From positions 1 to 64,000 of the forward strand of contig JALEVV010000063.1 of assembly GCA_022788185.1 (NCBI GenBank): a stretch of DNA of 64,000 bases, in the 5' to 3' direction. Positions 1 through 26,875 of this stretch are shown in pieces. The position numbers and the translations under genes are program-made. The notes beneath the pieces were generated by a model. The model searched no databases. It was given only the letters and a program-made list of their open reading frames with translations, and had not been told where the DNA came from. The DNA is from Spirochaetales bacterium (GTDB taxonomy: Bacteria > Spirochaetota > Spirochaetia > Sphaerochaetales > Sphaerochaetaceae). Each line of letters begins with the position of its first letter. Within the stretch, counting starts at the first letter, position 1.

Positions 1-1
1 G

Positions 2-58
2 CGGGAAATCAACGCCTGTGGAGACGAACATGGTGGACGACCGTGCGAACGCACCTAA
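2..58 (+). mobile_element. tnpB: C-terminal tail of IS200/IS605-family TnpB (5' part outside window)
   Basis: Frame 2 reads REINACGDEHGGRPCERT*, the characteristic TnpB C-terminus, followed directly by IS605-type right-end hairpins. Confidence 0.85.
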
Positions 59-141
59 GAAGCCCAACGTCGAGAAAGCAGGAATAGTTCCTGAGAATAC
101 GACTCAGGAAGCTCCCTGCCTTTAGGCGGGAGAGTTGTCAC
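59..141 (+). mobile_element. IS605-type right end / putative omega (re)RNA scaffold
   Basis: Perfect 8-bp stem TTCCTGAG(88-95)/CTCAGGAA(103-110), then CTCCCTGCC-TTTA-GGCGGGAG (112-132), ending GAGAGTTGTCAC; typical IS605 right-end layout after tnpB. Confidence 0.7.
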
Positions 142-171
142 TTTTGATATATGGTGTGTTAGTCTGTGACT

Positions 172-1413
172 ATGTCACAAACGGAAACCACACCCTTACC
201 CCTATGGACCCGGGACTTCACCATCATCACCCTGGGCAGCGTTGTTTCGATGGTCGGTAACTCGCTCTCTGGATTCGCAATGAGCCTGATGGTTCTGGAC
301 TACACCTCATCACCGCTGTTCTATGCCATATATGTGATGGCCTTCACCTTTCCGCAGATAGCTGTTCCCATCTTCAGCGGGGCCCTGCTGGACAGATTTT
401 CCCGCAAAAAGACAATTTACACGCTGGACTTCATTTCAGCGGCACTGTACCTGGCCTCGGGAGTACTGCTTTCCACAGGCTGGTTCAGCTATCCTGTTTT
501 CGCCCTTCTCGTATTCCTTTTCGGGACGATACAGTCGGTCTATCAGGTGGCATACCAGAGCTTCTACCCCATGCTCATCACAAAAGGCAACTACAGCAAG
601 GCGTATTCCATTGCATCAATACTGGAATCGGTCAGCGTTTTCATAGTTCCCCTGTCCACCTTCATATACAACAGAATGGGTATTGCACCCCTGATGATGG
701 CCAATTCAGTCTGTTTCTTCACTGCGGCAGTGATGGAAAAACAGATCAGGGCTGAGGAAAAATATGTGAAAGCAGAAAAAGGCGGCGGGATCAGGCGGAT
801 GCTTTCAGATACCAGGGAGGGCTTTACATACCTGAAGTCGGAACGGGGACTGTTCTTCATAGCATTATATTTCCTCTTTTCATCACTGGGAGGTGGGGTC
901 AGCAACGTCGCACTGCTTCCCTATCTGAAGTCTTCCTACCCGGGAGGGGAATACTACTACCTCCTCATCGGCCTTTTCATGATGGCAGGAAGATCCATCA
1001 CATCCGTCTGGCACTACAGGCACACGCTGCCCACAGAGAGAAAATTCACCATCGCCCTTACCGTTTACCTTCTTATTGCGCTCTCTGAGGGAACGATGCT
1101 TTTCATGCCCCTGGCAGTGATGTTCGCAATGTCGTTCGCATCCGGTTGTCTCGGGGTGACCAGCTACACGATAAGGGTATCGGCCACACAAAGCTACGTC
1201 CCTGACGAAAAGAAGGGCCGCTTCAACGGAGCCTTCAACGTGCTGAGTGTCCTGGGGTCCCTCATCGGGCAGGGGGCGGCAGGCATTCTCTCAGAGATCA
1301 TGGACCTAAGATTCGTGATGCTTCTGACTCAGATGGTGGTATTCACTGCGGCATTAGTGATCATAAAGGGTCATAAAAAGGATGTTTCGGCTATTTACAA
1401 CAGGCAACAGTGA
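172..1413 (+). CDS. MFS transporter
   Basis: About 12 hydrophobic segments; MFS-like motif LLDRFSRKK; ATG at 172 (GTG at 166 possible). Confidence 0.8.
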   Translation: MSQTETTPLPLWTRDFTIITLGSVVSMVGNSLSGFAMSLMVLDYTSSPLFYAIYVMAFTFPQIAVPIFSGALLDRFSRKKTIYTLDFISAALYLASGVLLSTGWFSYPVFALLVFLFGTIQSVYQVAYQSFYPMLITKGNYSKAYSIASILESVSVFIVPLSTFIYNRMGIAPLMMANSVCFFTAAVMEKQIRAEEKYVKAEKGGGIRRMLSDTREGFTYLKSERGLFFIALYFLFSSLGGGVSNVALLPYLKSSYPGGEYYYLLIGLFMMAGRSITSVWHYRHTLPTERKFTIALTVYLLIALSEGTMLFMPLAVMFAMSFASGCLGVTSYTIRVSATQSYVPDEKKGRFNGAFNVLSVLGSLIGQGAAGILSEIMDLRFVMLLTQMVVFTAALVIIKGHKKDVSAIYNRQQ

Positions 1414-26619: not shown

Positions 26620-26875
26620 GAATTACACTGTCTTTCACACCACATTCACAAGCTGCCTAAACCTTAGGATATCCCACAAACACCGATACGCTGAGTTACA
26701 CGGAATTGATACAGCATGTGGACATGATCAGGGCAACATTCCGCCTCAACTATCAGTGCACTTTTTGGGGTACACATTTGTCTAAATATCTTCCCTGTCT
26801 CTGTTCTGAGTCGGACGTATATCATAAGCTGTTTTCCAAGCACTATGTGGTATGAGCTAAACTTTCCTCATCCAT
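26620..26875 (-). pseudogene. Decayed IS200/IS605-family TnpA (Y1 transposase) remnant
   Basis: Minus strand: AAGGAG RBS, MDEESLAHTT*, then SYHIVLGKQLMIYVRLRTETGKIFRQMCTPKSALIVEAECCPDHVHML (HUH motif HVH), then broken frames including a V-x-T-V remnant. Confidence 0.85.

Follow-up and report, generated by a model that had tools for sequence, protein, structure and literature searches.

Right end of an IS200/IS605-type element from an uncultured Spirochaetales bacterium, with a predicted TnpB guide-RNA scaffold

The window analyzed here, a stretch of 64,000 nucleotides (G000:C28:1-64000, where G000 is the source genome, an uncultured Spirochaetales MAG), starts where its contig starts and retains the last 40 codons or so of a tnpB gene, whose tail reads ...GKSTPVETNMVDDRANAPKKPNVEKAGIVPENTTQEAPCL* in window frame 3. 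The cut inside tnpB is an assembly break, the contig beginning there. An IS200/IS605-type element has its 3' (right) end at positions 1-141, beyond which lies a gene for an MFS transporter (Table 1). Farther along, the minus strand of window positions 26685-26852 contains part of a further Y1 transposase gene (PF01797, E = 4e-5).

Elements of the IS200/IS605 type that carry the TnpB nuclease are common jumping genes, the end of which encodes the scaffold of a guide RNA, with the guide itself coming from the adjacent DNA. The TnpB-omegaRNA system is thus already known (PMC8612924, PMC10097598, PMC10278001).

Table 1. Features at the right end of the element and in its flank, in window coordinates
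Feature	Position	Strand	Remarks
tnpB 3' end	1..125	+	Frame 3 from base 3, TAG stop 123-125; 5' part lost at contig start
omegaRNA/reRNA scaffold, conserved part	20..141	+	Covariance model R1; covariation; ends at the right end
Putative pseudoknot, 5' strand GACGAC	36..41	+	Pairs with 134-139
Short hairpin GUGC-GAAC-GCAC	43..54	+	4/4 pairs changed on both sides across relatives
Hairpin 1, 8-bp stem	88..110	+	TTCCTGAG (88-95) pairs with CTCAGGAA (103-110), 8 bp perfect; 5/8 pairs changed on both sides
Hairpin 2 (right end)	112..132	+	CTCCC-T-GCC / GGC-GGGAG, 112-120 with 125-132; 8 bp plus bulged T, TTTA loop; 7/8 pairs changed on both sides
Putative pseudoknot, 3' strand GUUGUC	134..139	+	Pairs with 36-41
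Element terminus TCAC	138..141	+	Every copy ends ...GTTGTCAC, then diverges; boundary after 141
Predicted guide	142..161	+	Host DNA, first bases past the boundary; TTTTGATATATGGTGT (16 nt) to TTTTGATATATGGTGTGTTA (20 nt)
MFS transporter gene, flanking, outside the element	166..1413	+	ORF; GTG 166 or, more likely, in-frame ATG 172

Element ends, copies and target sites

Window 1-141 matches three other places in the source genome (C74:1-141, C30:52-192, and C30:64590-64731 on the minus strand) at 99 to 100% identity. These matches end at 141/142, and the downstream DNA differs in all four copies. Together with several copies in relatives, the four share sequence as far as ...GAGTTGTCAC and diverge after it; in relatives from the genus and family, the element stops at this terminus too (...GGCGGGAGAGTTGTCAC), and the DNA after it is unrelated. 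A pattern of 22 bases spanning the terminus found 48 matches in 20 of 139 genomes, and its reversed control found none in the 139. The boundary that the original prediction had put at about position 141 is therefore exact to the base, and the alignment that might have moved the element's end elsewhere returned the same end for every copy in the genome and in relatives. By comparison with IS608 and ISDra2, the terminal TCAC is probably the right cleavage site of TnpA. Right ends 96 to 98% identical to that of the window occur in a different genus (G030 and G032), which points to recent movement between lineages. An XRE-type regulator gene at C74:138-404 (minus strand, L078) has the element at its 3' end and gains a new stop codon from it; G001:C34 carries the same gene without the element.

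The assembly holds four right ends and four left ends in total. The left ends, found by a search for the missing left parts with a homologous TnpB (P0001, from G009), lie on other contigs (C60, C1, C84, and C85) and show the same type of hairpin after (T/C/G)TTAT. All four read TTAT followed directly by AAAATCCAT(G/A)CGGGAA...CTTTAGG..., with T, C, or G as the base before TTAT, and the motif precedes 5/5 left ends in the genome when a solo hairpin on C34 is counted. Subterminal hairpins at both ends, a mark of IS200/IS605 membership, are thus present. Insertion 3' of a fixed short motif with no target duplication is seen in related insertions and at the solo hairpin, and the corresponding empty sites show a native TTTAT or CTTAT in G001 and G011. 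The complete homologous element G009:C12 measures 1376 bp from CTTAT to GTTGTCAC. Its two flanks adjoin, free of the element, in G007 and G014; right-flank homology in G007 begins at most ~5 bp from the predicted boundary, and G011 has CTTAT at the equivalent position.

The proposed comparison with empty sites in relatives accordingly succeeded for two related insertions but not for the window's own. No empty site was found for the latter because nothing homologous to the downstream MFS gene exists at the DNA level elsewhere in the genus; at the protein level, only sequences of 19 to 26% identity were retrieved. Joining the right flank of the window to one of the four left-end contigs was likewise impossible, the MFS gene lacking a DNA homologue in the genus.

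Solo-hairpin remnants of ~54 bp, in which left and right ends are fused via a common CTTTAGGCGGGAGA or a variant of it, were also observed (L075, at G000:C34:2645-2700 on the minus strand; L168, L172, L178, L179, L181, L186, and L187). In these remnants the left flank is still of TTAT type and the right end still GTTGTCAC, and G001:C23 has an empty TTTAT site corresponding to the solo hairpin of C34.

Conserved RNA structure predicted at the 3' end of tnpB

The two hairpins noted in the original prediction, at 88-110 (8-bp perfect) and 112-132, are genuine and form part of a conserved RNA about 122 nt long. A nearly identical copy of hairpin 2 stands at the left end of the element. The strand from 80 to 141 folds at -26.6 kcal/mol (z = -4.36), with 0/200 shuffles as good; for 20-141, z is -2.60. 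Among the nine closest copies, both members were changed in 5 pairs, compared with an average of 1.3 in shuffles, none of which (0/500) reached 5. Covariance model R1, built without the pseudoknot, has matches in 35/139 family genomes, spread over 4 genera. Across 38 distinct sequences, both-sided changes affect 17/25 pairs, the covariation score is 0.470 versus 0.167 in shuffles (0/500 reaching it), and 89.6% of cells are paired versus 37 to 46% in slid versions, figures that lean towards structure since the alignment was fitted to nested helices and kinship inflates covariation scores. The Rfam search gave no match at the element ends up to E = 5, retrieving only tRNAs and an overlapping plastid family.

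The pseudoknot falls outside the model. About 81% of its cells are paired over the 38 sequences (5 pairs counted), with one compensatory pair. Its complementarity alone is not significant per sequence, about 8 to 13% of shuffles equaling it in window-type sequences; for this reason, we grade the 36-41/134-139 pairing as probable only.

A conserved structured RNA thus covers the tnpB 3' end and stops at the right-end boundary, as expected of an omegaRNA/reRNA. The proposal of such a scaffold over the tnpB tail and right end gains support from this conservation and from the compensatory changes in 38 relatives. Right ends with the whole omegaRNA stretch, no tnpB, and a guide of their own also occur (L027 in G009:C30 and L022 in G009:C2); these are possibly orphan omegaRNAs or decayed copies.

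Reading frames and transposon proteins

That the window opens in the end of tnpB was correctly recognized in the original prediction, but its reading frame (REINACGDEHGGRPCERT*) was not; the true frame is 3, as established by a longer copy and by homologues. The longer copy (G000:C30, L003) has 51 nt more upstream and reads VNIQKKGYEMMTIPVDGGKSTPVETNMVDDRANAPKKPNVEKAGIVPENTTQEAPCL* in window frame 3. Homologues with intact genes carry RuvC-III and a zinc finger upstream in that same frame, a near-identical copy in G032 extends the tail to DRDRNGSVNIQKKGYEMM... with the RuvC-III context included, and G022 has an intact tnpB of 420 codons, stop to stop, in the frame of the window. The TAG stop falls at the loop of hairpin 2, so that the coding sequence overlaps all of hairpin 1 and most of hairpin 2. 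The REINACGD of the earlier translation comes from the same nucleotides in another frame. The correction leaves the RNA interpretation unaffected.

The other frame serves a related lineage. In genus g16 (G092: ESNVCGDEHGGRP), the conserved nucleotides are translated as ESNVCGDEHGGRPLFEPKKPD...EAPCL*; 13 other readable members use the frame of the window, and despite the change of frame the nucleotide sequence stays conserved. One reading, to which we give an even chance, is that the scaffold is so strongly selected as RNA that the tnpB tail is in effect a noncoding RNA that happens to be translated, in an ETNMVDDRA-type frame here versus a CGDEHGGRP-type frame in G092. The C-terminal tail of ISDra2 TnpB that overlaps the RNA is reported to be disordered and dispensable (PMC10097598), which fits the frame switch seen in this tnpB tail. 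The G092 loci with the switch are L201, L256, and L257, compared with window 20-58. G108 (L180) also has the motif in the G092 phase, but there the frame stops upstream. A wider comparison of distant TnpBs gave no support to the idea that their NACGD and TPVE tails reflect a single RNA motif read in two frames (3/20 readable tails).

In relatives, TnpB matches PF01385, PF07282, and PF12323 as well as ISDra2 TnpB (8bf8/8h1j, E about 5e-69), with D190/E275/D358 on the catalytic triad; proteins with the RuvC DED triad and the zinc finger are found in G009, G010, G007, and G022. Within the source genome, every tnpB copy is broken at a contig end. The gene is assembled only as the N-terminal 156 codons (C60) and the C-terminal 57 (C30), both open, and codons ~150 to 362, including the first two RuvC residues (RuvC I/II), are absent from the assembly. 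The upstream check for an intact tnpB thus had a positive outcome in relatives, but the middle of the gene is missing here.

The search for tnpA found a Y1 gene (PF01797) in the C1 copy, divergent from tnpB, the first codons of which follow at the contig end. C60 joins its 156 open tnpB codons to an internally deleted tnpA, and C84 and C85 each hold a left end together with the tnpA 3' end. In the one TnpA that is close to full length (C1:24124-24474, L070), Tyr replaces the first His of the HUH motif (DYVHL, versus DHVHI/L in the same-type TnpAs of G007 and G010). Because of this substitution and the C60 deletion, the genome may, judging from sequence, hold only nonautonomous copies.

Predicted function and comparison with known systems

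Taken together, these results lead us to interpret window 1-141 as an IS200/IS605-type right end with an omegaRNA scaffold and a flank-derived guide, at a probability of roughly 93%. A decayed counterpart of this arrangement, that is, a real right end in which tnpB and the omegaRNA are disused and the hairpins persist as the copies are young, strikes us as unlikely. It would agree with the damage to tnpA in both copies where that gene is readable (C1 and C60), with a tnpB that cannot be assembled in the source genome, and with the tnpB-less right ends (G009:C2 and G009:C30) and solo-hairpin remnants of relatives. However, the copies are 98 to 100% identical, no readable piece of tnpB has its frame interrupted (156 codons in C60 and 57 in C30), compensatory changes keep the scaffold across genera, and the near-identical copies in another genus (G030 and G032) show that the element moved recently.

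It is highly improbable that the hairpins are DNA signals for TnpA with no role as RNA. Nearly the same hairpin at the left and right ends is what TnpA recognition needs, but the left end has just the one hairpin, beside its terminus, whereas the 3' end of tnpB has two further covarying structures, hairpin 1 and the 43-54 hairpin, the second of which lies upstream of the terminus by ~90 nt. A double role, as TnpA signal and as RNA, may fall to hairpin 2 alone. Two G+C-rich hairpins close to a stop codon might also be taken for an ordinary transcription terminator of tnpB, a reading that we find scarcely credible: no T-run directly follows hairpin 2 (GAGTTGTCAC), the sequence past it is conserved up to the end of the element, and the coding sequence extends into both hairpins.

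Under the favored interpretation, an omegaRNA-bearing right end, an element with divergent Y1 tnpA and tnpB would have inserted 3' of a TTAT-type motif without target duplication. The 3' part of the tnpB message would fold into the scaffold (the short hairpin, hairpins 1 and 2, and probably the pseudoknot) and end at 141, with whatever host DNA lies past that point becoming the guide. Should an omegaRNA be produced, the predicted guide is TTTTGATATATGGTGT(GTTA), window 142-157/161. This agrees with the original placement of the guide from 142 on, just upstream of the MFS gene, given a boundary exact at 141; the guide ends 10 to 14 nt before the likely MFS start. The other right ends in the genome would yield CAGAAATAGAACAGCT (C74), ATCCAGATTGCACAAC (C30 start), and TGAACCCATCCTGTGT (C30 end). 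Elsewhere in the genome, no site matches the window's 16-mer guide with 0 or 1 mismatch, and three match with 2; the target of the guide is therefore its own insertion site once emptied, in line with the role already described for such guides (PMC8612924). If the element works as ISDra2 does, TnpB would process its own mRNA and bind the scaffold, then cut the empty site left by TnpA excision (a TTAT-type TAM plus a guide-matching right flank), after which the element would be copied back by repair. Transcription, processing, cleavage, and any activity of the window's own copy are predictions from this analogy.

The system type is well known; what is added is a TnpB-omegaRNA family of Spirochaetales without a counterpart in the Rfam copy searched. 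The family offers a covariation-supported structure, a TTAT-type target motif, and several readable guides, which is enough for an ordinary cleavage assay. The frame switch over a conserved RNA also offers a natural way to ask whether tnpB tails are under selection as RNA or as protein.

The closest known parallel considered is ISDra2 of Deinococcus radiodurans, which likewise has genes for a Y1 TnpA and a TnpB, an RNA scaffold (predicted here) over the tnpB 3' end and right end, and a flank-derived guide; the TnpB of relatives is homologous to its TnpB over 367 residues. The loop of the right-end hairpin lies at -21 to -18 here, compared with disordered positions -20 to -17 in ISDra2, and the putative pseudoknot pairs -106..-101 with -8..-3, compared with -105..-103 with -5..-3 (PMC10097598). 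In contrast, the target motif is (T/C/G)TTAT rather than the TTGAT of ISDra2, the right terminus here is TCAC, and the pseudoknot strand, enclosed by stem 1 in ISDra2, is here followed on its 3' side by the covarying 43-54 hairpin. In TnpB elements of Sulfolobus islandicus, the left end likewise shows a TAM-type motif, either TTTAT or TTTAA (PMC10640517); these elements are archaeal, and the likeness noted is one of motif. Finally, the free-standing stem-loops of IS605 type on Borrelia plasmids (PMC2775950) are spirochaete hairpins like the solo hairpin of C34, although the latter is a fusion of left and right ends that retains both outer ends beside TTTAT.
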